Shown here: piece by piece, positions 3,541 through 62,147 of the stretch
Layout of the letters: each line of letters opens with the position of its first letter
How positions within the stretch are numbered: the first letter of the stretch is position 1
Origin: a virus
Strand: one strand, 5' to 3'
DNA length: 64,000 nt
Virus record (IMG/VR): IMGVR_UViG_3300033149_004284
Location: 1-64,000 of that record
Notes under the pieces: generated by a model
Told to the model about the DNA's origin: nothing
What the model saw: only the letters and a program-made list of their open reading frames with translations
Database searches by the model: none
Made by a program: the position numbers and the translations under genes

Positions 3541-3681
3541 ATGGCTAGAAAGTGGTTGGAGGTTCTGTCAAAGCGTAACAGAACCTCCAAAACGAAGCGG
3601 CTCTACGAGGACGGTCAGTCCACCAACAAGTACAGTTGGGACGGTACGCTCCTGTATTATGATAGGAGACTGGGATTTTGA
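3541..3681 (+). CDS. Small basic protein, 46 aa
   Basis: A short frame (MARKWLEVLSKRNRTSKTKR at its start) ends in TGA at 3679-3681, which overlaps the ATG of the following tail protein in a TGATG arrangement. GGTAAGG precedes its ATG. The coupling to the next gene and the neat fit between two tail genes support it being real. It is rich in Lys and Arg in the first half. No function can be assigned. Confidence 0.65.
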   Translation: MARKWLEVLSKRNRTSKTKRLYEDGQSTNKYSWDGTLLYYDRRLGF

Positions 3682-6407
3682 TGCTCCGAGAACCATCCTT
3701 GAAAGAAAACAGCACATATGAGATCACACTTGCTGGCGGCGATATAGTTGAAGTTGGCAACAGGCAAATTACGGATTTCGAGCCTCATGTCAAGCTAAGT
3801 CGCTGGGGAGGCGAGTGCTTCGTCAAAGTTGGTCTTTCACCCCAAAGGAAGATTTTGCCTGTTCTAGAAGACGGTAAAATCAAATGGATTGATAGGGATA
3901 CGGAAGCCTACTTCTATGCACTGGAACCCAGGACTGTCGTCGCCAAAAATAAGGCAGGTATAGCTAGTGAGTTCGGCCAATGTGAACTTGGAGGTTTTGA
4001 ATTTGAGGTTATCTTCAAGAAGAAGCCAGCTACTAACGAGATTATCTTCAATATTGAAACACAGGGACTCAAGTTCTACTACCAACCGCCACTTACACAA
4101 GAGGAAATTGCTGATGGGGCAATCGGACCAGAAAACGTAGTTGGCTCCTATGCTGTCTACCATGCCACCAGAACGAACATGCACACCTCTGAGGCAGATG
4201 CGGAAAAGTACAGATGTGGCAAAGCCTTTCATATCTATCGGCCAAAGATGACCGATGCAGAAGGAAACTGGACTTGGGAAGAGCTGAATATTGAGAATGG
4301 AATTCTGTCCATTACTTGCCCCCAAGAGTTTCTGGATAATGCTATTTATCCTATAAGTAGCAAGGGAACGAAGTTCGGATATGAAACACTGGGGTCTTAT
4401 AGTTTTAGCGCAATTCCTGATGGGGCAATTATAGGAAGTATTTTTACTCTATCCGAGGCTGGGGATGCTTCTAAGATGACATTGGGGCTTAGCCTGTTTT
4501 TGGATTCGATAGAAGAGAATAGCGTTGTGGTTATTCAAGGTAAAGGCGAGCTTCCTATTAAACAAGCAAGAATTGGAGACCTTGTTTTAGGTTACGATTT
4601 AGACAGGGAGAGAGTATCTTACAATAAAATCACCCGCTTGCATAGCCATAAGATAAAGGGATACATAGAAATCAATGGCCTGAAACTGACGCCAGATCAT
4701 TTGGTGTATGTTGAAAAGGGTTGGAGAAAAGCAGACGAGATTAGAGAAGGAGACAAGGTATTCGATGGACAAAGATGGATTGTTGTAAAAAAGGCCATTC
4801 CTCACGATGAATCAGTAGTTGCATATCATTTTGAGATAGAAGATGAACACAATTGCTTCGCCAACGGCATACTTGTTCACAATTTTGAGATCGCGTTTAA
4901 GGCAGCAATTTACGATTCATCTTTGGATTTAGTCGAACACGGAACAACCGATGAAGGAACTACAACCCAAGAAGCAGAGAAGTGGTATGATGTAGCCTTT
5001 GGCACCTCTCCAAGTCTGGCTGCTGGGGATTATTGGTTAGTTTTTAGTAGCGATGATCCAGGAGCCTACGCCTTCAATAAACTGTGCTACGATGTTGGCG
5101 CAGAGAATCAAGGAATGGGCGACGATACATCATGCGCTAGCTACGGAAGTTTATGGCCTGCCACTATATCCCTCGATGAACAAAATAACTACAAATACTC
5201 CATTTATTGTACGTACACGGCGGGGGCACAGCCTGAAGACTATCCCGTATCTCTATCCCTCTCACGCGTGGCTACAGCGGCAGCGTCGGGTCAGGCAGGA
5301 ACTCTTGGCAGCGCATCGCTAGGGCGGGCAGCTGGGGTATCTGATGGGGGGCAAGCTGGGACGCTGGCTGGTGCGTCGCTGACTAGGTCAGTGGGGCTAT
5401 CACCAACGAGGGTGGCAGGAATTGGAGCCGCCATTTCTTTGGCTAGGTCAGTGGGGGTGAGTGATACCGCTCTAGGCGTAAGCCTGGGCACGATGACTTT
5501 GGACCGAGAAGGCGGAATCTCGACGGCGGCTCTGGCTGCTGTAATAGCTGATGCTTCCCTAGCAAGACAAACAGGACTGACAGATTCAGGGCAAGCGACA
5601 GGCTTGGGTGTACTAGACCTAGAACGAGTCGATGCAATATCAGCAGCGGGAGTAGCAGCTGCCTTGGCGAGTACCTCTCTGGCAAGATTAGCAGGGATGT
5701 CAGCAACAAGAGTAGCAGGGGTCAAGGCCGCCATATCCTTGGCCAGGGCTGCTGGATTGAGCGACGCGGCTCTAGCTGTAAGTCTGGGTACAATAGCTCT
5801 GGACCGAAATGCCACTATCTCGGCTGTGGCTCTGGCAGTGGCATTAGCAAGTGCCTCCTTGACAAGGCAGATAGGATTGACAGATGCAGGCGTGGCTGCC
5901 ACTCAATCTGCTGCCTCCTTGTTGAGACGGGCAGGACTAAGTGCTGAGTCTTTGGCCTCGGCCTTGGCCGCAGCAGCACTTTCGAGGTCGGATGGAGCAA
6001 CTCTAACAGCCTCAGCTCAGGCCCTAGCAGATGCCCTCCTGGGCATATTTCAAGGGCTGGCGGCTTCCCCTAGACTAGACTTCAAATCTTCACTTACCCT
6101 AGACCGCTCCCTGGGACTGACCTCCTCAGGAGCAGCTGCAACAGAGGCACTTACAGCCTCAGCCTTAGCCCTAGGCGTGGACGCAAGTGCTTTGGCTTCA
6201 GCCACTACCTCAATGACATTGACTAGGCAACAGGTCATCTCGTTGCTTGTCGAAGTAGTCGTGATTGCGTCCCTTGGATTCGTAGAAGTCGCAGAGACAT
6301 TGCTGAATACCATCTCGGCCAGCGACACGAGCTCGACTAACCTGGCTGTCAGTGAGACGCTTCTTGGCAAGATCGCTGTTAGCGACTTGGGGGATGAAAA
6401 TGGCTAA
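3681..6407 (+). CDS. Large tail protein with inserted intein-like HINT domain and 16 tandem 20-aa repeats
   Basis: A 908-aa protein. Residues about 1-250 match a family of phage tail proteins (YYQPPLTQEEIADGAIG, PENVVGSYAVYHATR, GKAFHIYRPKM). A beta-sandwich follows but is interrupted at residues 276-401 by an intein-like domain. The flanks (LSLFLD and FEIAFKAAIYDSS) would join into one continuous strand if it were removed. After the second half of the sandwich (to about 525) come sixteen 20-residue repeats (532-851; consensus roughly GLSxxxxAxxLAxAsLaR), then a short C-terminal domain. The start is ATG at 3681, coupled to the upstream TGA; a TTG three bases earlier is an alternative. Likely a virion surface or fibre component. 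Confidence 0.85.
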   Translation: MLREPSLKENSTYEITLAGGDIVEVGNRQITDFEPHVKLSRWGGECFVKVGLSPQRKILPVLEDGKIKWIDRDTEAYFYALEPRTVVAKNKAGIASEFGQCELGGFEFEVIFKKKPATNEIIFNIETQGLKFYYQPPLTQEEIADGAIGPENVVGSYAVYHATRTNMHTSEADAEKYRCGKAFHIYRPKMTDAEGNWTWEELNIENGILSITCPQEFLDNAIYPISSKGTKFGYETLGSYSFSAIPDGAIIGSIFTLSEAGDASKMTLGLSLFLDSIEENSVVVIQGKGELPIKQARIGDLVLGYDLDRERVSYNKITRLHSHKIKGYIEINGLKLTPDHLVYVEKGWRKADEIREGDKVFDGQRWIVVKKAIPHDESVVAYHFEIEDEHNCFANGILVHNFEIAFKAAIYDSSLDLVEHGTTDEGTTTQEAEKWYDVAFGTSPSLAAGDYWLVFSSDDPGAYAFNKLCYDVGAENQGMGDDTSCASYGSLWPATISLDEQNNYKYSIYCTYTAGAQPEDYPVSLSLSRVATAAASGQAGTLGSASLGRAAGVSDGGQAGTLAGASLTRSVGLSPTRVAGIGAAISLARSVGVSDTALGVSLGTMTLDREGGISTAALAAVIADASLARQTGLTDSGQATGLGVLDLERVDAISAAGVAAALASTSLARLAGMSATRVAGVKAAISLARAAGLSDAALAVSLGTIALDRNATISAVALAVALASASLTRQIGLTDAGVAATQSAASLLRRAGLSAESLASALAAAALSRSDGATLTASAQALADALLGIFQGLAASPRLDFKSSLTLDRSLGLTSSGAAATEALTASALALGVDASALASATTSMTLTRQQVISLLVEVVVIASLGFVEVAETLLNTISASDTSSTNLAVSETLLGKIAVSDLGDENG
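4506..4883 (+). other. Intein-like (HINT/BIL) domain inside the tail protein
   Basis: Residues 276-401 of the 908-aa protein. Block A runs from Ser276 (SIEENSVVVIQGKG, then PIKQARIGDLVLGYD), block B has the T-x-x-H motif in LTPDHLVYV, and the C-terminal blocks read YHFEIEDEHNCFANG then ILVHN with the usual His-Asn pair. At about 126 residues there is no room for a homing endonuclease. The +1 residue is Phe, not Cys/Ser/Thr, which is atypical for standard splicing and recalls bacterial intein-like domains. Whether it splices or cleaves cannot be told from sequence. Confidence 0.8.
5274..6233 (+). repeat. Sixteen in-frame tandem repeats of 60 bases (20 residues)
   Basis: The region encodes 16 consecutive units of exactly 20 residues with no gaps, such as GLSPTRVAGIGAAISLARSV and GMSATRVAGVKAAISLARAA. 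A second level is visible: units 3-6 (from 5394) closely match units 8-11 (from 5694), giving a 300-base higher-order period. The spacing is perfect while the sequence has diverged, which indicates selection on length. A repetitive fibre or solenoid fold is likely but inferred. Confidence 0.9.
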
Positions 6408-44380: not shown

Positions 44381-45121
44381 ATGAAGGAAATTCCCCTCAC
44401 GCAGGACAAGGTGGCCCTGGTTGATGACCAGGACTACGAATGGCTTAATCAGTGGAAATGGACGTATACTTCTAGGGGCTGCACAGGCTATGCTTATCGG
44501 AATGTCTATCAAGGCTCCCGATATGTTAGGTGTGTCTTTATGCACCGTTTCATACTGAATCCACCTCCTGGCTTGGAGACAGATCATATCAATGGCAATG
44601 GCTTGGATAACCGCCGTTGCAATCTGCGTGCGTGCACACATATCCAGAATTCATGGAATAGCCGCAAGCAACAAGGCGCTACGAGTCAGTACAAAGGAGT
44701 CTCCTGGGCACGGAAAAACCAATGCTGGAGGGCGTTTATACATCAAGGTGGTCAGCAGATATCGTTAGGCAACTTTGACTCAGAGGAGGCCGCAGCGCTT
44801 GCCTACAACTATGCTGCGATCAAACTACGGGGTAGCCATACTCTTCTCAACCTTGTCCCTGACGGCCCTCCTCCATCCCGTCGACTAAAAAAGCGTCCAG
44901 GAAAGACTTCTCGCTATGTAGGAGTCTCCTGGTCTCGCCAACCGCAAGGTTGGCGAGCTGAGATTCGAGTTAAAGGCAAGCTCATATATCTGGGTTGCTT
45001 CACCTCAGAGGATGAGGCAGCGCGGGTCTGGAATGCGGCAGCGCTGAAGTGGAGAGGACCAGGAGCCAAGCAAAACATAGTACAAGGAGAAAGAGATGAA
45101 TTTCTTGTTGAGCGAAGTTGA
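44381..45121 (+). CDS. HNH endonuclease with two AP2 domains
   Basis: A 246-aa protein: an HNH core (FMHRFILNPPPGLETDHING then NGLDNRRCNLRACT), AP2 domain 1 (about 102-155, QYKGVSWARKNQCWRAFIHQ) and AP2 domain 2 (about 175-235, RYVGVSWSRQPQGWRAEIRV). This is the build of phage homing-type endonucleases. There is no good ribosome site before ATG 44381; an 8-codon frame (44343-44369) lies just upstream. First gene after the consensus promoter and leader. Confidence 0.85.
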   Translation: MKEIPLTQDKVALVDDQDYEWLNQWKWTYTSRGCTGYAYRNVYQGSRYVRCVFMHRFILNPPPGLETDHINGNGLDNRRCNLRACTHIQNSWNSRKQQGATSQYKGVSWARKNQCWRAFIHQGGQQISLGNFDSEEAAALAYNYAAIKLRGSHTLLNLVPDGPPPSRRLKKRPGKTSRYVGVSWSRQPQGWRAEIRVKGKLIYLGCFTSEDEAARVWNAAALKWRGPGAKQNIVQGERDEFLVERS

Positions 45122-47464: not shown

Positions 47465-48325
47465 ATGGAGACTAAAGGCATGGAGACATCCTGGGACGCT
47501 AAAAGTCCACGCGCAGCCCTTGTTGAAACCTTCCTGACTGGCCTTGGCGAGGAGAAGACCAAGCCCAGGCGAGCTCGTCGGGACTTTGCATACTTCATAG
47601 AATATGTCTTTTCTGATCAGAGAGGAAAGCCCCTCAAGCTTCAGTGGTTCCACAGGCAAATGATCAAATATCTGATGTTTGAGAAGAGGGTGCTGGTACT
47701 CTTGCCGAGATCGTGGGGGAAAAGTACCATAGGCTCAGTAGCCTATCCGGCCTGGCGTCTTGGGGTAAACCGAGACCTCAGAATTATCATAGCATCAAAT
47801 ACTATAACGCAAGCTAAGTGGTGGTTATCTGAGATCGAGAACTTGATGCTCAAGAATGATAACTTTCACGAGGTATTCGGCTTCATGGTTCCCAAGCCTA
47901 GGACGCTTCGCTGGACTGATACCGAGAAGCGAGTACTTGGGCGTTCTCCTTACGCTATGCACTCCTCACTTCTAGCCACGGGCATTGGTAGTGCATTGCT
48001 AGGAGCTAGAGCGGATGTTATCATTGCCGATGATTGTATCGGTGAAAGAGAGGCCATTTCACCTATCCAGCGCAAGCAAGCCTCGACCTGGTTCTGGAAA
48101 GTTCTCCTCAACACGTTAGAGCCTGATGGCCAGGTGGTCGTCCTCGGCTCTCCCTGGGGGCCCAATGACCTCTACAAGGAAATCCAGGAGAGATGGAAGG
48201 ATCTCCCGTCTGAGATGGCTACCTGGCAACGAGGCGACTTCGTTATGCCAGGGGATTATCCCAGCCAAAGTCAACTGCGTAAGATGGAGCGAGAAGGCAG
48301 CCTGGACCCACTGAGGAATGTTTGA
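47465..48325 (+). CDS. Large terminase, ATPase part
   Basis: A 286-aa protein: RRDFAYFIEYVFSDQRGKPL, Walker A-like LLPRSWGKST (79-88), Walker B ARADVIIADD (181-190), coupling motif VVVLGSPWGPNDLY. These are the ATPase motifs of phage TerL. The chain stops at residue 286 after DYPSQSQLRKMEREGSLDPL, where the nuclease domain should begin. A 27-base duplication spans the stop. The nuclease half is encoded separately 0.5 kb downstream. Confidence 0.85.
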   Translation: METKGMETSWDAKSPRAALVETFLTGLGEEKTKPRRARRDFAYFIEYVFSDQRGKPLKLQWFHRQMIKYLMFEKRVLVLLPRSWGKSTIGSVAYPAWRLGVNRDLRIIIASNTITQAKWWLSEIENLMLKNDNFHEVFGFMVPKPRTLRWTDTEKRVLGRSPYAMHSSLLATGIGSALLGARADVIIADDCIGEREAISPIQRKQASTWFWKVLLNTLEPDGQVVVLGSPWGPNDLYKEIQERWKDLPSEMATWQRGDFVMPGDYPSQSQLRKMEREGSLDPLRNV

Positions 48326-48375
48326 TAACTTAGCCCCACTAGAACCTAGACCCACTAGAGAATGTTTGATAACTT
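48305..48375 (+). repeat. Direct repeat spanning the terminase stop
   Basis: A 27-base segment (48305-48331) containing GGAATGTTTGATAACTT recurs at 48349-48375 with three mismatches. A shorter third copy supplies the start codon of the next gene (ATGTTTGAC at 48388). Confidence 0.8.
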
Positions 48376-48387
48376 TGAGGAGGGAAA

Positions 48388-48876
48388 ATGTTTGACGACG
48401 TGATAGTAACTGACAAGTATGGAGCTCCAACAATGAGAGGGGAAGTGACCAGATATGGTCTCGTAACAAAGAATCCTGATGATGTCAGAGGTGGCCTATA
48501 CTGCTGGTATAAGCTAAAAAAGGCAGATGAATTTCTCCTCGCCTACAGGATCGAGGCAAGTAAAAAGCCCGTAGTTGAGCACACAGATGTGGAGGAGTGG
48601 TATCCTGTTACGCTCAGAGAGTCTTTCAAGATAGCAGGAAAAGGGCGATTCATGTTCGAGGAAGGAGAAGGGCCCCATATCTGGTTCAGACTCTCGACGT
48701 TTACCACACCTAACAGGCTGAGGGCCAGGATAGCCGCAGTCAGGTCTGGCTGGCAACGATTCAGGCTTGCAGTTAAGTTTCTAAGAAGACGCCTTCGGGA
48801 AACCCTGGAGATTCTGAAGCCTGTCTATCGAAGAAGTGCCCGTCTCACTAATCCCCTCAGATGGCCTGGATATTAG
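48388..48876 (+). CDS. Protein inserted between terminase halves, 162 aa
   Basis: GAGGAGGG precedes the ATG. TDKYGAPTMRGEVTRYGLVT, FMFEEGEGPHIWFRLSTFTT, then a very basic helical tail (RFRLAVKFLRRRLRETLEIL). No homing-endonuclease motif is seen. It separates the ATPase and nuclease parts of the terminase; whether it is cargo of an insertion or a packaging factor is open. Confidence 0.65.
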   Translation: MFDDVIVTDKYGAPTMRGEVTRYGLVTKNPDDVRGGLYCWYKLKKADEFLLAYRIEASKKPVVEHTDVEEWYPVTLRESFKIAGKGRFMFEEGEGPHIWFRLSTFTTPNRLRARIAAVRSGWQRFRLAVKFLRRRLRETLEILKPVYRRSARLTNPLRWPGY

Positions 48877-49793
48877 GGAGCATCGCCCCGATAGGCTGGG
48901 GGGAAGAGCATTGGAGGTTTATTATCGCTGGCATCTTGATCATACCTGCTCTAACGAACGACTCAGAAGGTAACCAGATCTCGAATTGGCCTGACCGCTG
49001 GCCTCTGAATCGTCTCCTGGCTAAGAAGCAGGAGATTGGTCCCATCCCTTTCTCTAGCCAGTTTATGCTTGATCCCGTTAACTTGGAACACGCATTCCTC
49101 AAACGGGAATGGCTGCAATTCTACCTAGATGAAGACCTTCCTGACCTTATCAACTATATCGGAGTGGACCCGTCACCCTCAGGCAGGCAAGGTACTGACT
49201 ACTTCGCCCTCGCTGTTCTAGGGGTAGATGTTGCCCATGTGGGATATCTCGAATCTGCCTACCGCATCCAAATCGATCCCCTGGAGCAGGCTCAGCGTAT
49301 CCGCATTGAGGCGGGGGTCTGGCATCCAGCTTTAGTCATGGTAGAAGCCGTGGCAGCTCAAGCTCTCTTTACTCGCTATATGCTTCAGGACGTTACCTTT
49401 CCTCTCCGCGAGGGCACGACCAGATTTCCCAAGGAGCTTCGCTATGTCTCAATGTCTCGCTTATTCGCAAGTGGCAGAATCAAGATCAGAGGCAAGCGAA
49501 ACAGTGACGGCGAGATCGTGCCTGCTGACTCTGTTGCCGACTTTGTTGAAGAGTGGGTAGGCTATGCGCCTAAGGGGCCTCGGGACGACACTTTGGATGC
49601 TGTCGAGAAGGCTATTGAGGCCTCTCAGCTAATCTCAGGCAATCCTGTATTCCAGGCATCTCGCCCTGAAAATGTTCCTGTGGGTCGGGGGACGCATCCT
49701 GGACTTGCAAGTGGCGGCAACTTGCTGAGAGGGACCCGAACGCCATTTGGGAACAGGCAGCTGCGCTCGCGGCGATCCCTAGGGAGACGATAG
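48861..49793 (+). CDS. Large terminase, nuclease part
   Basis: A 310-aa protein: NWPDRWPLNRLLAKKQEIGP, PFSSQFMLDPVN, then an RNase H-like nuclease (YIGVDPSPSGRQGTDYFALA with D103, VMVEAVAAQ, GPRDDTLDAVEKAI), as in the C-terminal half of TerL. The start overlaps the 162-aa gene by 16 bases and has no clear ribosome site. It must act with the ATPase part to cut and package DNA. Confidence 0.85.
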   Translation: MAWILGSIAPIGWGEEHWRFIIAGILIIPALTNDSEGNQISNWPDRWPLNRLLAKKQEIGPIPFSSQFMLDPVNLEHAFLKREWLQFYLDEDLPDLINYIGVDPSPSGRQGTDYFALAVLGVDVAHVGYLESAYRIQIDPLEQAQRIRIEAGVWHPALVMVEAVAAQALFTRYMLQDVTFPLREGTTRFPKELRYVSMSRLFASGRIKIRGKRNSDGEIVPADSVADFVEEWVGYAPKGPRDDTLDAVEKAIEASQLISGNPVFQASRPENVPVGRGTHPGLASGGNLLRGTRTPFGNRQLRSRRSLGRR

Positions 49794-51911: not shown

Positions 51912-53389
51912 TGCAAATTGGTCTTTTGCTTAGCTCCAAACACCATGCTGAGATGTTAGCATCTGGTAACAAGACCATGCTCATCAGAGCGAGGCGTTTC
52001 TACCGCTATGTCCGCATACCAGTCTACCTGCTGGCTGATCAGAAGTGTTATGCCAAGATGGTTCTTGGGTCTCCCCAAAAAATAGACCTGAGTGGGTTTA
52101 GAGCATTGCGGAGTCAACACAGAGTAACTGAAAAGGAAAGGGAGCAACAGTGGCCTGACGAACTAGACTTCTACAGCTATAAAGTCCAGGTTCTCGAAAC
52201 TTACGATCCGCCTAAGAAGGTTAAGTTCCCTCCCACCTCTCAGGCTTGGGTACGCCATTGGGAATGGTTAGACCGCCCTCCCAAGGAGCTCCATCTTGAG
52301 AAGGTGGCTGACCTAGAACACTATCATCCGTCCAAGATTCCTGACACAGCACGCGGCAGTGCTATCCTCAGGGACGACGCTCGGCTACTCTTGGCCTACT
52401 GGTCGTCAAAACGGTCAGGCAAGGATGTCAAATATACCTACGACCTCTTGGAGCAGAAGTACACAGCCATCCTCCGTGAACTCGTTCGCAGGAGAGCAGC
52501 TCAGTTCAGTCCTCAGAACTATAAGCCTCATGCTAGAGATCTATTTGACAGAGCTGCGCGAACCCTCCAGTTGGAAGGTATTACTGTCCCACTCAGAAAG
52601 AGCTCGCATCTGAAAGGACTCACAGCCCTCCAGAATATGACGGATAAGGAACTCCTGGCTCACCATGACCACTTGCATCAAATGTATGCTGAGGGCAAAG
52701 TGACTAAGGAGAGCATCGTCAATGCTCATATCTTTGCAGTCCAGGCAATGAGACATAGGGGCCTATCTCACAAGATCGAGGATGACCTTGACAGGGAGCT
52801 CCAGGGATCTGCTGCATCACGCCTCGTCCCCTTCGTCATCATAGACTCAATGGTTTGTCAAACTGGCTCTTCTGTCTACGACATCAGGCCCCCTCACGAC
52901 TGCGACTTAGTGATACGCAGCGATGAGGAAGACTCCAAGATGACCGCAGCTATCCTTAAGGCCGTTAACCTCCCTCCATCAACCATCCACCGTATTTATG
53001 AACCCAGAGGCCCCTCCTTTGACTATGTGGCCCTCCTGGATTATGTAGCAGTGCCAGTAGCCTGGAAAGGTACCTGGACGAAGAAGAGCATCCGCCCCGA
53101 GGACATCCCCGAACACTCTTGGGCTATCTATCGGCAGTTGCCTCCTGCCGTCTTAGTCCACGACCCCTTCGTCACTCAAAGCAACAATACTTTCTACGTC
53201 CGAGATGCTCGCCGCAACACTGGCATTGAGATCAAGCTCACCAGGCTGTTAGCGGCTAACCTCTCCTTCCGATGGCGCGGGGAGGACGAAGCCATGGCAG
53301 GAACGCCGCTCTTTAAGTCTTTCCTGATTCCACATATACCTCTGAGGAGGGCCAAAGTCGATGAGCCTTTCTTCCGAAGATACTACTGA
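51911..53389 (+). CDS. ASCH-like plus nucleotidyltransferase-like protein
   Basis: A 492-aa protein coupled to the portal stop. Residues 1-120 look like an ASCH/PUA fold (LLLSSKHHAEMLASGNKTML, IRARRFYRYVRIP, FYSYKVQVLETYDPP). The centre is helical. GSSVYDIRPPHDCDLVIRSD offers a nucleotidyltransferase GS-x(n)-D-x-D motif, followed by YVALLDYVAVPVAWKG. A head-morphogenesis or modifying role is possible; the combination is not one I recognise. Confidence 0.6.
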   Translation: MQIGLLLSSKHHAEMLASGNKTMLIRARRFYRYVRIPVYLLADQKCYAKMVLGSPQKIDLSGFRALRSQHRVTEKEREQQWPDELDFYSYKVQVLETYDPPKKVKFPPTSQAWVRHWEWLDRPPKELHLEKVADLEHYHPSKIPDTARGSAILRDDARLLLAYWSSKRSGKDVKYTYDLLEQKYTAILRELVRRRAAQFSPQNYKPHARDLFDRAARTLQLEGITVPLRKSSHLKGLTALQNMTDKELLAHHDHLHQMYAEGKVTKESIVNAHIFAVQAMRHRGLSHKIEDDLDRELQGSAASRLVPFVIIDSMVCQTGSSVYDIRPPHDCDLVIRSDEEDSKMTAAILKAVNLPPSTIHRIYEPRGPSFDYVALLDYVAVPVAWKGTWTKKSIRPEDIPEHSWAIYRQLPPAVLVHDPFVTQSNNTFYVRDARRNTGIEIKLTRLLAANLSFRWRGEDEAMAGTPLFKSFLIPHIPLRRAKVDEPFFRRYY

Positions 53390-54473
53390 GATTCGTGGTC
53401 TCCTGTATCGAGATAGGCAGACTAAGGTGGCATTAAGGTTTCTCAAAAGGATAAATGTATCCCTAGAAGCCATTAGGCGAAACCTCGCAAGAGCAGAGGA
53501 GGCCCTTGCGGATGAGCCTCTATCTAGCAATGTGAGACTTCTAGCCGGCAAGTTTCTGCTAGCGGAGGAAGACATCCCTCTGGAGGATTTGGGTATTCTG
53601 ACAAAGACTCCAAATCTAGCCAGCATCATCATTCTGAACTACAATACTCTCAAGATCACCTCTGACTGTATCAAAAGCGTTCTAGCCTTGACTGAATACC
53701 CTGCGGAGATGATAGTAGTTGATAACGGCAGCACGGATGGCAGTGTGGCCTGGCTCAAGAAACAGAATTACCTAACTTTGATATCTAACAAGAATAACCG
53801 TGGCTGGACTGCCGCAAACAATCAGGGCATCAGAGTCTCCAAAGGGGCCTACTGCCTGTTACTTAACAGCGATACCATTGTGAGGACAAGGGGCTGGCTC
53901 AAAGCCATGATTCGCCTCGCTCAGCCCCCTGACGTGGCGACGGTCGGGGCCAAGCTTCTTTACCAAGATGGTACCATTCAGCATATAGGGGGCAGCATCC
54001 ACGACGTCAATCCCTTCCATCCCTTTGACGGAGCGCCTGCCGACATTCCCGAATCACTTAAAGTCAGAGAAGTCCCTTTCAACACGGGGGCCTGTCTCCT
54101 TATCAAGAAATCCGTCATCGAGCGGGTGGGCTTACTTGACGAGAAATATGTGTTCGGTTATGGTGATGTGGACTATGGCTTGAGGTGTCTTGAGGCAGGA
54201 TTTAGGAATCTCTACTGTCCATCGTCTATCCTAACTCATCTCTGGGCTTACACTCAGCGAAAAACAGGCAAGTGGATTCCATCTGAGAGCTTTGCCAGGT
54301 ACAAACAGAAGTGGACTGACAAGACGCCCGCTCTCTCTAAAAAGGTTGACATGGATTTCAGGTGGCCTGATTCTGCACAGTATATCAGAAGGACTGGTCC
54401 GGGCAGTCATATAGCAACTATTCGCAAGAAGGAGAGCGCTATGACCTGGGGGGCATTAAATGAAAACCAATGA
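53361..54473 (+). CDS. Family 2 glycosyltransferase 1
   Basis: A 370-aa protein with a helical N-terminal 85 residues, then a GT-A domain: ASIIILNYNTLKITSDCIKS, VVDNGSTDGS, NRGWTAANNQGI, LLLNSDTIV, FNTGACLLIKKSVIERVG, GYGDVDYGLRCLEAGF. These are GT2 motifs for sugar transfer from a nucleotide sugar. GGAGGG precedes the start, which overlaps the upstream gene by 29 bases. First gene of the glycan island. Confidence 0.85.
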   Translation: MSLSSEDTTEIRGLLYRDRQTKVALRFLKRINVSLEAIRRNLARAEEALADEPLSSNVRLLAGKFLLAEEDIPLEDLGILTKTPNLASIIILNYNTLKITSDCIKSVLALTEYPAEMIVVDNGSTDGSVAWLKKQNYLTLISNKNNRGWTAANNQGIRVSKGAYCLLLNSDTIVRTRGWLKAMIRLAQPPDVATVGAKLLYQDGTIQHIGGSIHDVNPFHPFDGAPADIPESLKVREVPFNTGACLLIKKSVIERVGLLDEKYVFGYGDVDYGLRCLEAGFRNLYCPSSILTHLWAYTQRKTGKWIPSESFARYKQKWTDKTPALSKKVDMDFRWPDSAQYIRRTGPGSHIATIRKKESAMTWGALNENQ

Positions 54474-55311
54474 GTTTGAGCCTAAAGTCTTTGTCAAGAA
54501 CGCAAAGGAATCTGGGCAGCAGGTATCTCTAACCATGGTCACCTTTAATCGGTGGAATCTCACTCAGCAGAGTCTCTCTTCCATTTTCGAGCACACTCAT
54601 CTGCCATACATTCTGACTGTTGTCGATAACGGGAGCTGGGACGAGACGAGGGAAAACCTACAGGAACTCAGGCGGTCTGGTAAGATTAACAGATTGATTC
54701 TTCTCCCCGAGAACCGAGGCATTGACATGGGGAAGAACTTCGGCCTGCGAGCTACCCAGGGCCAGGCTAGCTGGTACTGCTGTATCGACAACGATATCAG
54801 AGTCAGTCCCTACTGGCTCAGCTACCTCTGCTATACATCTACTCTCCCTCGCCTTGGCATAATCGGCTGCAATGTTCAGGGATTTGGCACTCCTGGAGGC
54901 CCGAGCTGGTTTACACCCACGCACTGGAAAACTGTGAAAGGAGTTGTCCTAGACAACTGCCCTAATCCAGGTGGAATCTATGTCATCAGTGCAACTACAT
55001 TCGAGAAGCTAGGCTTCTTCGTTGAGAGGGGCCTCTACGGTCTAGGGGACAGCCAATACTACTCACGGGAGTTTCAACATGGCCTCAGAAGCGTCTATGT
55101 GAGAAATGTCGATTGCAGAGAGATACCTGATGAGGACTTTGTGATGGCAGACGGTACGTCGTATAGGACTTTCAAGGCGACTTCTCACAACTCTATGCGT
55201 CAGAAGGTCAGAGAAATGGCATCTCAAGGCATTGATATCCACCCAAAGCATTACGAGACTAGAGTAACGGCCCAAGAAGTTGAGAAGTATACCTGGACGC
55301 CAGAATCATGA
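54460..55311 (+). CDS. Family 2 glycosyltransferase 2
   Basis: A 283-aa protein: VSLTMVTFNRWNLTQQSLSS, TVVDNGSWDET, NRGIDMGKNFGLRA, CCIDNDIRVSPYWLSYL (D-x-D-like), GGIYVISATTFEKLGFF. A GT-A fold glycosyltransferase. Overlaps the preceding gene by 14 bases. Confidence 0.85.
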   Translation: MKTNEFEPKVFVKNAKESGQQVSLTMVTFNRWNLTQQSLSSIFEHTHLPYILTVVDNGSWDETRENLQELRRSGKINRLILLPENRGIDMGKNFGLRATQGQASWYCCIDNDIRVSPYWLSYLCYTSTLPRLGIIGCNVQGFGTPGGPSWFTPTHWKTVKGVVLDNCPNPGGIYVISATTFEKLGFFVERGLYGLGDSQYYSREFQHGLRSVYVRNVDCREIPDEDFVMADGTSYRTFKATSHNSMRQKVREMASQGIDIHPKHYETRVTAQEVEKYTWTPES

Positions 55312-55337
55312 CCTTAGATACTTAGGGGTCCCCAACT

Positions 55338-55814
55338 ATGATTTTAGATGCAGGATCAGGCATGGCATCGAACCCAAGAGCCAACATACTCATGGACAAA
55401 TATCTTCAAGGAGACAGTACCTCTCGTATAACGGGCACTCTTATGATTCGCAAAGGACAGACTATGATTTGTGGTGACCTTGAGGCCATGCCATTTCTGG
55501 ATAAGTCCTTCGACATTGTTATTTGCTCTCAGACGCTCGAACATGTTGATAATCCTGAGAAAGCCTGTGCTGAGTTGGTGCGGGTAGGAAGGAGTGGTTT
55601 CATAACTGCGCCAAACGAGACAGTAGAAAGGCGTCGATATGAGCGTCGCGAGAAGCTCTATCACAAGTGGCTTATCAAGCAACGGGGCACTCACCTCGAC
55701 TTCTATCTCAGAAGTCTCGTTCCAAGCCTCCCGATGATGGAGCATCCTAGCCAGGGCGTGGATATGGCTTGGAAAGGGAGCTTCACTTGGTCAGTGTTCA
55801 GAGAATCGCCATGA
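55338..55814 (+). CDS. SAM-dependent methyltransferase 1 (short)
   Basis: A 158-aa class I methyltransferase starting right at motif I (MILDAGSGMASNPRANILMD), then CGDLEAMPFLDKSFDIVICS and QTLEHVDNPEKACAELVRVG. The N-terminal cap is missing and the ribosome site is weak, so it may be shortened. Probably methylates a sugar in the island's product. Confidence 0.75.
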   Translation: MILDAGSGMASNPRANILMDKYLQGDSTSRITGTLMIRKGQTMICGDLEAMPFLDKSFDIVICSQTLEHVDNPEKACAELVRVGRSGFITAPNETVERRRYERREKLYHKWLIKQRGTHLDFYLRSLVPSLPMMEHPSQGVDMAWKGSFTWSVFRESP

Positions 55815-56803
55815 CAAGACTCCCCAGAGTCCTATTCGTTAGCATAGCTCCGTCTCTCCACACGGAGTTCTGGGCTGCTGGCTTTATGAAGGCCCTTCGC
55901 AAAGTTGCCGTTCCACTGGCTTTCCCTTTCAGGAAAATGGCTCATGACCACGGGGCAGCCTACATGAACGAGACGCTAGTGGAAACTGCTCTGGAGTTTC
56001 GTCCTGACCTGATCTTTATTAGGAAGGGGGAAAGCATTCTCGGCTCTAGCATTAAGACGCTCAGGGATTCCCTGCCTGCTTATATCATCTACTATTGTGG
56101 GGACTTCCGTCTCAATCCAGTCTCCTTCATCGTCGATATTGGACGATACGCAGATTGTACCATTTTCAACAACGAGGACGAGAAGGTTGCTGATAGATAT
56201 CAGGTTGCGGGTGTGAGACATGTGGGTCCTTGGTGGGACGGTGGAATTGACCCAGAAGTCTTTTGCCCGCAAGACGTACCCAGAGCCTGGGACCTAGCCT
56301 TCATGGGCACTAACGTCCCCTTGCCTCACAGGGGCTATCAGGTACGTCGCCAACTACTGGAGGCTATCGTCGAGAGTAACTACTCTCTTCACATCTTCGG
56401 TGGGGCTGAAGGCTGGAAGTACCTCCACACGAATACCCACCCGTTCGTTTATGGCCCTGCTTTCGCTAAGGCCTGTTCTCAATCGCGTATCACTCTGGGC
56501 GTCAATGGAGTGAACGACATGTATCTGTATGCTTCCTGGCAACGTACTTTCAAGTCAATGGCCAGTGGAGCGTTTCACCTTACTCACTATGTCCCTGGAC
56601 TGGAGACGTTCTTTGAGAACCGCAAGCATCTGGTCTGGTTCATCTCCATACCTGAGGCGATGAGTCTCATTGCTTACTATCTCACTCACGACGAGGAACG
56701 TGAAGAAATAGCCATGGCAGGCCGACAGGAGGTTCTTGCTCACTTCACTTGGGACGATGCTGTCGCAAGGCTTATGAGGATTTGGCAAAGTGACTGCTGT
56801 TGA
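55811..56803 (+). CDS. CgeB/GT4-like glycosyltransferase
   Basis: A 330-aa GT-B type protein: RLPRVLFVSIAPSLHTEFWA, DLIFIRKGESI, ADCTIFNNEDEKVADRYQVA, WDLAFMGTNVPLPHRGYQVR, SRITLGVNGVND, RTFKSMASGAFHLTHYVPGL. This is the CgeB-like pattern (glycosyltransferases family with DUF3880). ATG 55811 overlaps the preceding stop. Confidence 0.8.
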   Translation: MTRLPRVLFVSIAPSLHTEFWAAGFMKALRKVAVPLAFPFRKMAHDHGAAYMNETLVETALEFRPDLIFIRKGESILGSSIKTLRDSLPAYIIYYCGDFRLNPVSFIVDIGRYADCTIFNNEDEKVADRYQVAGVRHVGPWWDGGIDPEVFCPQDVPRAWDLAFMGTNVPLPHRGYQVRRQLLEAIVESNYSLHIFGGAEGWKYLHTNTHPFVYGPAFAKACSQSRITLGVNGVNDMYLYASWQRTFKSMASGAFHLTHYVPGLETFFENRKHLVWFISIPEAMSLIAYYLTHDEEREEIAMAGRQEVLAHFTWDDAVARLMRIWQSDCC

Positions 56804-57473
56804 ACAATACCGTAGGGACTTCGCCACGTACATGAGCCTTCCTGGAGCTGAGAGGTGTAGACTCCAAATGTATCCTCGTCTTGAGGATAAGACCGCATCA
56901 ACTCCCCTGGATGCCTATTACTTTCGACAAGATACCTGGGCGTTCAAGCGGATAGTAGACCTCAAGCCTAGCAGCATAGTAGATGTAGGATCGACTGCGC
57001 TCCTCGTGGGAATTCTTGCCCAGATGTTTCCTACAACGAGTATCGATATAAGGCCCATTCCAGTATCTCTTCCTGGATTAACATGTAGGCAAGGCTCGAT
57101 CACTAATCTCCCCTTCAAAGACGCCTCAGTTGAGCTCCTGAGCAGCCTATGTGTGATAGAGCATATAGGTCTAGGTCGATACGGCGACAAGCTCGATCCG
57201 CTCGGTAGCATCAAAGCCTGCAAGGAGATCTCGAGGGTGCTCAAGCCTGGTGGACATTTCATAATGAGCACTCAAGTGAGTCATACCCCTGCCCTCTGCT
57301 TCAATGCGCACCGAATCTTCACGCAGGCCCAAGTTCTGGATATGTTGCCAGCCTTCTCGGTAACGGATGAGGCGTTCTTCTTCCCTCGGCCTGGCAATGC
57401 AGAAGACATAGAGGCACTCACGGGTTTCAGGTTCTGCTTCTGGTGCGTAGACTTGGTTAAGGAGTCAGCATGA
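56790..57473 (+). CDS. SAM-dependent methyltransferase 2 (DUF268-like)
   Basis: A 227-aa protein, GTG start. SSIVDVGSTALLVGILAQMF, SIDIRPIPVSLPGLTCRQGS, SLCVIEHIGLGRYGDKLDPL, KPGGHFIMSTQV. The GLGRYGD motif after EHI is typical of DUF268 methyltransferases found in glycan clusters. Confidence 0.8.
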   Translation: MTAVEQYRRDFATYMSLPGAERCRLQMYPRLEDKTASTPLDAYYFRQDTWAFKRIVDLKPSSIVDVGSTALLVGILAQMFPTTSIDIRPIPVSLPGLTCRQGSITNLPFKDASVELLSSLCVIEHIGLGRYGDKLDPLGSIKACKEISRVLKPGGHFIMSTQVSHTPALCFNAHRIFTQAQVLDMLPAFSVTDEAFFFPRPGNAEDIEALTGFRFCFWCVDLVKESA

Positions 57474-58273
57474 CGCTCTCGGTTGTAACTCCTAGCTACA
57501 TTAACAACCAGCAACGAGCTGATTGGGCCAGAGACTCTCTGGCTTCCCTCAGGGAAACTATCGGCGACGGCTACTTACATGTTGTGGTGCTTGACAAATC
57601 CCTTGAATGGAATATTATTGCTCAGGCAATCTATAACCAGCCTAATGTAATGCTCATGCAGCGTCCCAAGCCTCTTGGCAATACTTCAGCTTTGCTAAAG
57701 GCCGTGAAGGAATCTCGCAAGTTGGGAGCAGATCTCTGTTTTGTCCATATGGACGATAACATCTATGTCCCCGAATTCGGACCTCTTCTCAGATATGCCC
57801 AGGACGCTTTCAGCAACGATAGGGAGTTGCAAGAAGTGCTCTTTGTTGGCTACCCGATCCTTATAAAGAGGCATAGCAAACCACTTCTTGGCAATCGCAC
57901 AGGCCTAACTATCGAGGAGAATCAAGTCTCTTTCGATACCATACAGTTGCACCCTACTCGCTGTACGGATTATACTCTCTGGTGGTCTTATTTTCATGAC
58001 CGAATGGTGGACGGGCGATTTTGGGCAGTTGTCATGTGGATGGCTCTCTACCGAGCTGAGTTCTTGGAGAGTGTCCTTACACTTGCCCCTACGGGCCGGA
58101 CGCTTGGTCAGGTTGAATCTTACTACAGAAACAGAAGCAACTGGGAGAGACTATCCCATCGCTTTCCAGGAAAGCTCGGTTACATAAACATGCAGTTCGG
58201 CGGTTTGGAGATGCACCATCATAGTCAGGAATGGTGTGAGATGATCCGTTTTCCTAATACGCCTGTGAGGTGA
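57470..58273 (+). CDS. Glycosyltransferase-like protein (GT-A fold)
   Basis: A 267-aa protein: MTLSVVTPSYINNQQRADWA, LHVVVLDKSLEWNIIAQAIY, LCFVHMDDNIYVPEF (DxD-type DDN), ALYRAEFLESVLTLAP. Likely a distant GT-A transferase. Its last codons (CCTGTGAGGTGA) are duplicated 32 bases downstream. Confidence 0.65.
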   Translation: MTLSVVTPSYINNQQRADWARDSLASLRETIGDGYLHVVVLDKSLEWNIIAQAIYNQPNVMLMQRPKPLGNTSALLKAVKESRKLGADLCFVHMDDNIYVPEFGPLLRYAQDAFSNDRELQEVLFVGYPILIKRHSKPLLGNRTGLTIEENQVSFDTIQLHPTRCTDYTLWWSYFHDRMVDGRFWAVVMWMALYRAEFLESVLTLAPTGRTLGQVESYYRNRSNWERLSHRFPGKLGYINMQFGGLEMHHHSQEWCEMIRFPNTPVR

Positions 58274-58309
58274 GACATATAGGAGAAGACTTACCTGTGA
58301 GGTGAAGGA

Positions 58310-58948
58310 ATGACTTACAGAGAGAATCCAGAACTAGGTCAGGACATGGTTAAGTTTGCCTTTCATCGTTGGCAGCAAGGAGAATATCTCTTAGAGCCTC
58401 CTCAGCGTCAAATCTACGAGAATATTGCGGTCAGAGCGAAAGGCAAGACGGTCTGTGATATAGGCTCTGGAGCGGGACTGGGAACTACTATCCTAGCACA
58501 AAGGGCTCAGTCAGTTATTGGCATCGAGAAGGTTGCGTCTTCCGTCAGGTTCTCTAGGAAATGTCATCCCCTAACAAATGTGCAGTTTCTGAATGAGGAT
58601 ATAGGGAAGTGCTCTCTTTCTGACAACAGTTTCGATGTAGTGGTGGCGGTTGAGGTGATAGAGCATATCGCAAACTACCAGGCAGCACTGGATCAGATGG
58701 CTCGAATTCTGAAAGAGTCTGGAACCCTATACATCTCGTCTCCTAACAGGAATCAAGATATTAGAGGAGGAGCGTCAGGCGCAGGCCCGCCAAGGAACAA
58801 GTATCATGTTCGAGAGTGGACAGCCGAGGAGTTTCGGCATATTCTTCTCTCGCGCTTCAGTCAGGTTAGGCTTTCTGACTATACCCTTGACCCTTGCCTA
58901 GACTCCTGTACGCGAGTCTCGCCAGTTATCGCGATCTGTCGAATATGA
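58310..58948 (+). CDS. SAM-dependent methyltransferase 3 (type 11)
   Basis: A 212-aa protein: TVCDIGSGAGLGTTILAQRA, SVIGIEKVASSVRF, VQFLNEDIGKCSLSDNSFDV, VVAVEVIEHIANYQAALDQM, RILKESGTLYISSPNRN. A complete class I methyltransferase. GAAGG precedes the start. Confidence 0.85.
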   Translation: MTYRENPELGQDMVKFAFHRWQQGEYLLEPPQRQIYENIAVRAKGKTVCDIGSGAGLGTTILAQRAQSVIGIEKVASSVRFSRKCHPLTNVQFLNEDIGKCSLSDNSFDVVVAVEVIEHIANYQAALDQMARILKESGTLYISSPNRNQDIRGGASGAGPPRNKYHVREWTAEEFRHILLSRFSQVRLSDYTLDPCLDSCTRVSPVIAICRI

Positions 58949-59613
58949 GAACTCTGTGGATCGTTATTCCAGCAAAAGATGAGGCTGCTACTATTGCAGA
59001 CCTAGTTGCCGAAGCCGCCCACTACGGAACGGTGTTAGTAGTTACCAGTGGGCCTTCAGACGATACTGGCCCAAGAGCTGCCAGCGCGGGAGCCCAGGTA
59101 ATCTACAACGGCCAGAGCATTGCAGGAAAGATAGTCACTGGCTGGCAGAGAGCCCTCGACAACAATGCGACACGAGTCATAGTCATGGATGCAGGCGGAT
59201 CGCATAGGCCATCAGATATCCCCCGTCTCCTGGCAGCAGAGGCTGACATCGTAATAGGCAGTCGGTTTGTGGCTGGAGGCCAATATCATGGCAGATCGTG
59301 GCGCAGGGTATGCAGTCAAGTCATGGCTCTGCTCTGCAACCTAGCCCAACCAGGTAAACAGGTCCATGACTGGTCTAGCGGCTTCAGGTGTTATTCGGTA
59401 GAAGCAATTGGGCAGCTACTAGCCGTCCATTATAAATCTGATATGCACGCTTGGCAAATCGAGGTGCTAGGCTGGGCTAGGCGCTTGCACCTTTCAGTTG
59501 AGGAAGTCCCTATACAGTATACTGCTGGGCACTCGTCTCTCTCCTGGGATGGGGCTCTCAGGGCTCTCAATATATTGTTAGACATCTTGCTCCGCAGGTG
59601 GGTAGTCGGATGA
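58945..59613 (+). CDS. DPM1-like family 2 glycosyltransferase
   Basis: A 222-aa protein: LWIVIPAKDEAATIADLVAE, VVTSGPSDDTGPRAASAGAQ, VIVMDAGGSHRPSDIPRLLA (DxxG motif), DIVIGSRFVAGGQYHGRSWR, QVHDWSSGFRCYS. Matches dolichol/polyprenyl-phosphate mannose synthase-like GT2 enzymes, which charge a lipid carrier or polymer. ATG 58945 overlaps the previous stop. Confidence 0.8.
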   Translation: MRTLWIVIPAKDEAATIADLVAEAAHYGTVLVVTSGPSDDTGPRAASAGAQVIYNGQSIAGKIVTGWQRALDNNATRVIVMDAGGSHRPSDIPRLLAAEADIVIGSRFVAGGQYHGRSWRRVCSQVMALLCNLAQPGKQVHDWSSGFRCYSVEAIGQLLAVHYKSDMHAWQIEVLGWARRLHLSVEEVPIQYTAGHSSLSWDGALRALNILLDILLRRWVVG

Positions 59614-60683
59614 TATTCTACCTTGATACATACATTACTGACGAGCCTCTCCATCCTGCGTTTGTTTGGCCAAACAGGGAGATCAGGAACTCCTGTCCCC
59701 AGTATAAGATGCCACGGAGAATAGATATCACAAAGTACACGCTTGCGAGTTATAAGATGATTCCGTGGACACATGTTGTCATCGCATACGATGTTGCTGA
59801 TAAGGATGATGAAAGCACGTTCCTGGACTTTGTGCAAGAAGTTTTCCCAGACGCAGATGTTAGTCGGCCTCGCTCCTCTAACCAGAAGACGTACAGGGCA
59901 AGAGTGGAGCAAGTTTGCAGTTTTGAGGATGACTTCATCTTTTATGCACCTAACAACGATCATCCCCTCATAGCAAGCAATCTCAATCACCTGCCCAAGT
60001 TACTCAAAAAGGCTTCAAGGTTCTCACAAAACTACCCATTTGTCTCCGTTGTCTACTCGCACTTCAGTGAGTTCGTCAACGCGCCTGTCGTTGGGAGTCC
60101 TTTCTACAGACAGTTCTCTAGCGACTCACGCATAGTAGAAGACGACGAGATTGCTACGAGCTTTGTGAGATTCAATGGCGACAACTCTTCTATCCAGATC
60201 GTCAATAGGAATCTCCTGCAACACTGGTTTTGCTCACATGATCTCGGTGATGCCAGAATCATCAGAGCAGAAGATGTTCGCAGGTTTCTTCCAACTCCTA
60301 ACCAGTTGATGATAGTGCCCAAGAAGGAGCTCTGTGCGCACTTTGACGGCTACTCGCATACAACTGGTATCACTAAGATCAGTCCTGACCAGATTCCTCC
60401 TCTATTCATTCCAACAGGGTTCTTCGACAGCTCGATTCGGATCGCCTACGGATATCCAGAATACCGAGATGGCTGGGTAAACATAAACCCTTCTGCGAGG
60501 GATTTCAGTTTCCGCGACCGAAAGACGGGCACAGATCTGAAAATTGGTCTTCAGGACATACCTCTTTTCTGGAAGAGCAGAATCGCAGAAATAGACATCA
60601 ATGTGAATGCCGACCTCGAGCGAATTAAGGAGGGCAGAGAGAAATACTTTGAGACAGTTCGTAACCCCTGGAGGAAAGCCTAG
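59610..60683 (+). CDS. Glycan-island protein of unknown family, 357 aa
   Basis: MIFYLDTYITDEPLHPAFVW, WTHVVIAYDVADKDDESTFL, CSFEDDFIFYAPNNDHPLIA, SVVYSHFSEF. The EDDFIFYAPNNDHP string acts like a DxD metal site, so a GT-A transferase is possible, but the family is not recognised. Coupled at both ends. Confidence 0.55.
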   Translation: MIFYLDTYITDEPLHPAFVWPNREIRNSCPQYKMPRRIDITKYTLASYKMIPWTHVVIAYDVADKDDESTFLDFVQEVFPDADVSRPRSSNQKTYRARVEQVCSFEDDFIFYAPNNDHPLIASNLNHLPKLLKKASRFSQNYPFVSVVYSHFSEFVNAPVVGSPFYRQFSSDSRIVEDDEIATSFVRFNGDNSSIQIVNRNLLQHWFCSHDLGDARIIRAEDVRRFLPTPNQLMIVPKKELCAHFDGYSHTTGITKISPDQIPPLFIPTGFFDSSIRIAYGYPEYRDGWVNINPSARDFSFRDRKTGTDLKIGLQDIPLFWKSRIAEIDINVNADLERIKEGREKYFETVRNPWRKA

Positions 60684-61258
60684 TGATCAAGTTGCATATA
60701 GGCTGTGGCCCCAGAGTGCTAAAGGGATGGATAAATATCGATCTCAAGTTCACTCCTTACCAGGCGTACCTGAAATACTACACTGACAAGTACTACCCAG
60801 AGTCCGCTAGGGGCGACAAGTCAGATTTTCTTGCACTAGATGTGTCTAGGCAGCCTTTGCCCTTTCCTGACAATTCGGTAGATGTCGTCTTCCATGAGGA
60901 CTTCCTTGAGCACCTGAACCAGCGTAGCCAAGTTCTCTTCCTAGCTGATTCTCTCCGAGTCTTGAAGCCAGACTCCATTCATCGAATTGATACGCCTAAC
61001 CTGTTAGCATCGATGCGCGATCACTCTAATTTCTCCCTTGGCTTTCAGGGTGTCTATGTCCATGAGTGGGATAAGTCCAAGCATCTCAATGTATTGACCC
61101 CTAGCTCGCTTGAAGAGATGGCTCTTATGGTTGGATATTCAACAGTAGTCTTCACAGGTAGAAACCAAAGTGCGTCGCCTCTGATTCCGCCTGAGTATCG
61201 CCCTGATCCAAGAGATCGGCCCGAGAACGGAAACATCTTTGCAGATTTGGTTGCTTAG
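60683..61258 (+). CDS. SAM-dependent methyltransferase 4
   Basis: A 191-aa protein with GTG start overlapping the previous TAG. IKLHIGCGPRVLKGWINIDL, LPFPDNSVDVVFHEDFLEHL, SLRVLKPDSIHRIDTPN: a class I methyltransferase of the kind found in glycan clusters. Confidence 0.8.
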   Translation: MIKLHIGCGPRVLKGWINIDLKFTPYQAYLKYYTDKYYPESARGDKSDFLALDVSRQPLPFPDNSVDVVFHEDFLEHLNQRSQVLFLADSLRVLKPDSIHRIDTPNLLASMRDHSNFSLGFQGVYVHEWDKSKHLNVLTPSSLEEMALMVGYSTVVFTGRNQSASPLIPPEYRPDPRDRPENGNIFADLVA

Positions 61259-61268
61259 GAGTAGCGCC

Positions 61269-62147
61269 TTGAGGATATTTGTTCTTCCTGTGTCGTCTCA
61301 GTTTCAACCTCCTCCCATGAAGATTCTCTATCCTCCTCACAACAAGCGAGACTACGGCATTGAGCAAGACTTCGCTCAGCATCTCACAGAGCCTTCTAGT
61401 GACTGGACGATCGCAGAGTCTTCTGACGTTGCTGATTGGCATTACCTTCCTATCTACTGGACACGTTACCATGTGACACATAACTATGCCAAGACTGGCC
61501 TAGAAGCACTTCAGCGTGAAGTTGCCCGAAGAATCATTGACGACAAAAGGACCTTTACAATTTGCCAGTATGATGATGGGCCTTTGGTAGACCTTGGTAG
61601 AACTGTGCAGTTTCTAGGGTCTCGCAAAGGGGAAGAAGGCATCGACGTCCCTCTTCTTTCCTATCCTCATAAGCTCCCTGCAGTTGATCCCCCTAAACAG
61701 TGGTTAGCGTCTTTTGCAGGGAGACTCCGAACGCACGAGGTTCGCGCAGACATGCAGCGTGTTCTGGGGCCTCGCCAGGACATTGACATTCAGGACACAC
61801 GCAAAACCAGTAGATTCTTTGTAGACTTGATCCTTCGGTCGTATGTTTCCCTCTGTCCCAGGGGATGGGGTGGCTCGTCTTTTAGGTTTTATGAATCTAT
61901 GCAACTGGGAGTAGTGCCCCTTCTCATTGGCAGCATAGACACCCGCCCCTTCAAACGTTTCCTGAACTGGAGTATAATGAGTCTCTATGCTCGCACGGCC
62001 GAGGAAGCAAATGTGTCCCTCGACTCCCACACTCTGACAGAATTGCTAGAGATGGGGCGATGTGCCAAGAAAGCCTGGCATCAAGATCTATCGTTTGGGC
62101 ACTGGCACAAGTATGTGTTTCAGGAATTGGAGGCTCTATGGCATTAA
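61269..62147 (+). CDS. Exostosin-like (GT47-type) glycosyltransferase
   Basis: A 292-aa protein. DKRTFTICQYDDGPLVDLGR, then YVSLCPRGWGGSSFRFYESM, QLGVVPLLIGSIDTRPF: the PRG-x-G-x-x-S-x-R-x-x-E-x-M-x-x-G-x-x-P motif is the exostosin signature. TTG 61269 is chosen since AGGAG is six bases upstream. A GT47-type enzyme in a phage is uncommon. Confidence 0.75.
   Translation: MRIFVLPVSSQFQPPPMKILYPPHNKRDYGIEQDFAQHLTEPSSDWTIAESSDVADWHYLPIYWTRYHVTHNYAKTGLEALQREVARRIIDDKRTFTICQYDDGPLVDLGRTVQFLGSRKGEEGIDVPLLSYPHKLPAVDPPKQWLASFAGRLRTHEVRADMQRVLGPRQDIDIQDTRKTSRFFVDLILRSYVSLCPRGWGGSSFRFYESMQLGVVPLLIGSIDTRPFKRFLNWSIMSLYARTAEEANVSLDSHTLTELLEMGRCAKKAWHQDLSFGHWHKYVFQELEALWH

Follow-up and report, generated by a model that had tools for sequence, protein, structure and literature searches.

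An internal, BIL-like HINT domain with Ser1 and Phe+1 in a phage tail-type protein whose homologues lack it

We found that a tail tip/fibre-type gene of a tailed phage (3681..6407; all features of this gene are given on the + strand) carries a HINT domain of 126 aa (4506..4883), running from S1 to H125-N126, which is A-type-BIL-like according to its profile matches, its PDB matches and its predicted model. The window, which is the whole stretch of DNA analyzed, corresponds to positions 1-64000 of a contig that is 86,287 bases long and was binned in a 2.57-Mb MAG. The first-pass annotation had placed a HINT domain in a tail protein at exactly these coordinates, and we arrive at the same result, with the domain in frame and within a single ORF. 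From sequence comparison, we can establish the HINT fold with its catalytic residues, a precise insertion relative to homologues with an empty site, and the lack of a nucleophile at the +1 position. On balance, we favor a reading in which this domain, whose insertion into the tip of a variable hairpin spans exactly S1 to N126, would mainly cleave itself, with ligation as a minor activity at most.

The host gene and its HINT domain

The gene occupies an uninterrupted ORF (3678-6407) that opens with a TTG at 3678 and encodes 908-909 aa; the ATG at 3681, which lies behind a purine-rich stretch and gives a protein of 908 aa, is the likely start. The flank upstream of the insert (3681..4505), ending in MTLGLSLFLD, consists of a conserved beta-rich N-domain (mean conservation 0.56) and the first strands of a C-terminal beta-sandwich (37-62% identity with relatives; the model of one relative, L010, as the structural basis). 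The remaining strands of the beta-sandwich follow the insert (4884..5240), beginning with FEIAFKAAIYDSS, and an Ala/Ser/Leu-rich repeat tail, read from the translation, completes the protein (5241..6404). Matches to the carrier fold in the PDB were weak (carbohydrate-binding modules and the Bxb1 tail tip), whereas BFVD contains numerous phage tail, collagen-repeat and pectate-lyase proteins with the same C-terminal beta-sandwich of ~160 residues. The host is probably a tail tip/fibre protein, an assignment that position and fold support well; both the homologues of the carrier and the adjoining tail-fibre-like genes bear out the earlier proposal of a host of phage tail type.

The insert on its own matches the Pfam families PT-HINT (E=3e-10) and Intein_splicing (6e-9), both of which pass the Pfam cut-off, as well as the NCBIfam model TIGR01443 intein_Cterm, again above the model cut-off. 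In a phmmer search of the PDB, the Mtu RecA mini-intein (3ifj, 1e-8) was nearest, together with the Spl DnaX mini-intein (7cfv), and a C. thermocellum BIL was next (2e-5). An AlphaFold (AF2) model of the domain has the HINT fold, with a block pLDDT of 80-92 across the domain, and Foldseek matched this model to BILs and inteins with E-values of 1e-10 to 1e-7; hedgehog was matched too. The top Foldseek matches in the PDB were 6y75 (1.4e-10) and 2lwy (3.8e-9; rmsd 1.9 Å), both BILs, followed by class 1 inteins. Thus the profile search and the structure prediction that the first-pass annotation had proposed as checks both came out in its favor, and sequence and model together identify a HINT domain at a level far beyond chance.

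We assigned Ser1 (TCG, 4506..4508) as position 1, the predicted N-terminal nucleophile of block A, from the spacing S1-S6-G14-L16-P17-I18, which fits an intein N-terminus; S6 occupies the Thr/Ser position of block A. This spacing is presumably that of the Ssp DnaE intein. Some aligners move a one-residue gap to the very end, which shifts position 1 by one. Block B is represented by T-P-D-H (T62...H65; 4689..4700), invariant across our alignments, and block F by His115 (4848..4850), placed by alignment, with His108 (4827..4829) at block F position 4, a position occupied by Asp in class 1 inteins and by Cys in class 3 inteins under published class definitions (PMC7765530). Block G ends in His125-Asn126 (4878..4883), the predicted site of Asn cyclization, with N126 encoded by AAT at 4881-4883. 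The +1 residue is a non-nucleophilic Phe (TTT, 4884..4886), followed by Glu-Ile, with no C/S/T nearby; its codon is a single base away from TCT (Ser) or TGT (Cys). No endonuclease is present inside the 126 residues. Ser1, blocks A, B (TxxH), F and G, the terminal His-Asn, the absence of an endonuclease and Phe at +1 can therefore all be read from the translation, just as first described.

Insertion site and class of the domain

The HINT domain is missing from 38/38 host-protein homologues whose sequence covers the site (IMG/VR and MAGs), so that the contrary outcome named in the first-pass annotation, homologues that always contain the segment, did not materialize. The relatives include contigs from IMG/VR with up to 50% identity, the closest of which is L010, as well as UOF79905 of phage ctMEh928 (34% identity for residues 105-269, and 29% once the flanks are joined); further homologues come from MAGs labelled Dehalococcoidia, Parcubacteria/Patescibacteria, Neomarinimicrobiota and Nanohalarchaeota and from more viral contigs. 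Since MAFFT alignments (A5, A6 and A8) misplaced the insert or its first residue by some positions, we fixed the junction on the excised protein and position 1 by the spacing. Between fixed anchors, the hairpin that harbors the site is 17-23 residues long in homologues, and it is 21 residues long after excision of S1..N126, equal to that of L010. The L010 model (mean pLDDT 88) places the junction midway along a loop (271-277), between D273 and P274, with strands 259-270 and 278-284 on either side of the loop. The flanks had been thought to rejoin into one beta-strand; both the L010 model and the excised alignment revise this, placing the flanks as the two arms of a beta-hairpin with the junction at its tip.

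The site itself is not conserved. Across the 38 homologues, with smoothing windows of 4-12 residues and two measures of conservation, the junction lies at the 4th-22nd percentile of the whole protein and at the 17th-36th percentile inside the C-terminal domain alone. According to published work, inteins occupy conserved sites and BILs non-conserved ones (PMC2814812), and here we have a non-conserved site in a variable protein, as in A-type BILs and not as in class 1 inteins. The domain resembles a class 1 intein in having one of C/S/T at position 1 (Ser1) and in its precise insertion relative to the 38 HINT-free homologues, and departs from that class at +1, where Phe stands in place of C/S/T. 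Two other intein classes do not fit: class 2 (Ala1 with a +1 nucleophile) is ruled out by Ser1 and Phe+1, and class 3 (Cys at block F position 4, no Ser/Cys1) by His108 and Ser1.

To place Phe+1, we compared the +1 residues of other HINT domains. In nine non-intein HINTs (phage tail, toxin-type and PT-HINT) this residue is variable (T,T,T,V,M,A,S,A,D), whereas it is Cys in 10/10 complete intein loci; thus, Phe+1 fits the BIL pattern. The domain has two features of A-type BILs, a C-terminal His-Asn and no C/S/T at +1 (PMC4031507). The N-terminal thioester from Cys1, which is part of the mechanism proposed for A-type BILs, is replaced here by Ser1; because Cys1/thioester is not given as a defining feature of the type (PMC7765530, PMC4031507), we treat Ser1 as a difference and call the domain BIL-like rather than a certain member. 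In a tree of 21 HINTs, the domain sits on a long branch and forms no starred clade with either BILs or inteins. The earlier view that a BIL class is likelier than a standard intein holds up, given Phe+1 and the poorly conserved site.

Among the nearest known systems, A-type BILs (2lwy; the Magnetospirillum BIL, which has Tyr+1) have in common with the domain the HINT fold, the terminal His-Asn, the absence of a +1 nucleophile and a site of low conservation within a variable host, but it differs in Ser1, in its phage tail-type host and in the empty site of 38 relatives. The class 1 mini-inteins 3ifj and 7cfv are its best PDB sequence matches and share blocks A/B/F/G, the lack of an endonuclease and a clean insertion, but they have neither Phe+1, nor a His for the block-F Asp, nor a variable, non-enzymatic site. 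BIL2 of Tetrahymena BUBL1 (6y75), the best structural match (E=1.4e-10), comes from a eukaryotic locus annotated as ADP-ribosyltransferase and is only 21% identical.

Processing of the domain

If the domain cleaves itself, as we suppose, then after folding Ser1, aided by the T-x-x-H of block B, would turn the Asp(-1)-Ser1 bond into an ester, and Asn126 would cyclize with the help of His115 and His125, cutting before Phe+1. This would yield a C-piece of ~507 aa and an N-piece of ~275 aa, the latter either alone or still attached to the HINT domain, and the beta-sandwich could keep the two pieces associated. The aminolysis that has been proposed to ligate the flanks of A-type BILs would contribute little. 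Without C/S/T at +1, the canonical branched intermediate is impossible, and mainly cleaved products are expected. Reviews describe BILs as lacking the +1 nucleophile and as unable to form the branched intermediate, and in A-type BILs, with their His-Asn, splicing is possible but cleavage predominates (PMC4031507, PMC7664689). The closest analogue of Phe+1 is the Magnetospirillum BIL with Tyr+1, which spliced only once Tyr+1 was changed to Cys (PMC4031507, PMC7664689), so C-terminal cleavage and N-terminal ester cleavage are expected here, with minor ligation. Several points count against autocleavage: the block-F Asp is a His, only a single copy of the insert is known, the tree does not attach the domain firmly to either BILs or inteins, and the exact hairpin length upon excision is equally expected of a splicing intein. 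Furthermore, Ser1 gives an ester, and such a residue is both less common and less reactive at this position than Cys1.

We considered that the domain might instead be a decayed, inert mini-intein that lost a former C/S/T at +1 and now persists, folded but unprocessed, on a loop at the protein surface. This is possible but, in our judgment, unlikely. It would explain why Phe lies one base from a Ser or Cys codon and why block F has a His for Asp, and it is in keeping with a single copy that is the AT-richest stretch of the gene (39% GC, the lowest value, compared to 44-59% in the remainder). Moreover, a permanent insert would be tolerable, given that the two ends of the HINT domain are near each other and that it sits at the tip of a loop. 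On the other hand, S1, TPDH, H115 and HN are all intact, which is unexpected after long decay, and the site is non-conserved, unlike intein sites.

We regard it as doubtful that the domain still splices despite Phe+1, with the freed amine of the C-flank attacking the Ser1 ester, as in the aminolysis of A-type BILs, to rejoin the flanks into a normal tail protein. Excision of S1..N126 restores the homologous hairpin length, the residues for both bond breakages are all present, and splicing is possible for A-type BILs even in the absence of a +1 nucleophile (PMC4031507). However, cleavage predominates in the BILs that have been tested (PMC4031507, PMC7664689), and Ser1 yields an ester rather than a thioester. 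The joined tip itself, FLD|FEIA, also argues against splicing: just 1/7 of its residues are turn-formers, a fraction as low as in none of the 38 homologues (mean 65%), and it is more hydrophobic than all of them, which makes it the most hydrophobic of the 39 sequences. A hairpin shaped for the spliced state is expected to resemble the hairpins of its relatives. The dissimilarity mildly favors either cleavage or a domain that stays in place permanently; coming from one sequence, the composition of the tip speaks mildly against a spliced mature form.

The first-pass annotation had also raised a maturation or covalent-linking role in a virion fibre. In such a role, the HINT domain would be a virion maturation switch that cuts the tail protein at the hairpin tip during or after assembly, or the Ser1 ester would be resolved by an amine of a neighboring protein, cross-linking the tail. 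This role gains little or nothing from our data, and we consider it improbable. If it were true, it would define a phage-adapted class of A-type HINT processing, with the C-terminal tail HINTs of jumbo phages as the second example. Lastly, a metagenome assembly chimera joining a HINT fragment into the tail gene is highly improbable: the insert is on one contig only, and that contig is from a MAG, but it is in frame, its borders are exactly the HINT termini, the homologous hairpin length is kept, and the MAG has no second copy of the HINT domain.

Other phage HINTs and genomic context

The presence of a HINT domain on a phage tail protein turned out not to be novel in itself, since related C-terminal HINTs are found on tail or virion proteins in 54 phage records, mostly of Erwinia jumbo phages and also of Dickeya, Yersinia, Alcaligenes and Salmonella phages and NCTB; one of the 54 is annotated 'putative phage tail protein, contains intein domain'. 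We inspected six such C-terminal HINTs with a terminal HN (L004, 4130-4552; L005, 3965-4384; L008, 4304-4726; L110; L111; and L112), and found Cys as the first residue and T, V, M or A at +1, with about 10 further residues after it. The HINTs of the Erwinia, Dickeya and Yersinia jumbo phages and of Alcaligenes phage Afa-NA1 are like ours in having an HN and a variable +1 on a tail-type protein; they differ in being C-terminal with a tail of 10-12 residues, in having Cys1, in an identity of only 23-26%, and in falling on another branch of the tree. In the open literature that we searched, we found no reports on the activity of C-terminal phage tail HINTs. The novelty lies in a BIL-like HINT that is internal and exactly placed, that combines Ser1 with Phe+1, and that resides in a virion-type protein for which the empty site is documented. 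Separately, Cys1 and HN HINTs occur in phage proteins of toxin-like layout in two Ruminococcus phages (L006 and L007), at three places in one record.

Searches for closer relatives of the domain returned little. A scan of viral_contigs with the HINT query P0001 alone detected no relative; a scan with P0001 plus Mtu RecA yielded 51 loci, none of them in this tail-protein carrier, and those inspected were ordinary inteins in RNR/DnaE/helicase-type genes. Among 98 related genomes, no HINT other than its own was found at 1e-5, and among 193 genomes the PT-HINT family was represented by its own copy and one other only. The alignment of seven HINT sequences (A2) contained no stretch conserved enough for searching. 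Alignment A4, which included a hand-made variant row, entered none of the analyses.

Most of the A-type BILs known so far belong to secreted proteins of bacteria. A BIL-like domain in a receptor-side tail protein of a phage, with dozens of empty relatives, offers a clean test of whether such a domain cuts, splices or does nothing, and allows one to ask whether the phage particle needs it. The locus also marks a non-conserved phage site that was entered by a HINT domain without an endonuclease of its own.

The contig encodes a terminase and a portal. Toward its far end lie a tape-measure-like ORF of 1477 aa and tail-like ORFs, whereas the window opens with fibre-like genes; the two ends of the contig do not overlap. 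The large terminase is split (window 47465-49793), such that phrog_38 positions 266-473 are in 47465-48325 and positions 468-705 are in 48861-49793. The ~535 bp between the pieces hold an unrelated 162-aa ORF (48388-48876), and gaatgtttgataact is present twice at the left border of this interruption. Rfam searches detected no group I intron in the window and no Rfam intron of any kind at the split terminase. An HNH endonuclease with an AP2 domain, of the homing type, is encoded at 44381-45121, ~2.3 kb upstream of the split terminase. In addition, the structural region contains a run of glycosyltransferase-/methyltransferase-like ORFs (53361-63592), with one confirmed Glycos_transf_2, and an ORF at 1302-2852 combines an N-terminal M23 peptidase domain with a long C-terminal extension of glycosidase-like appearance.
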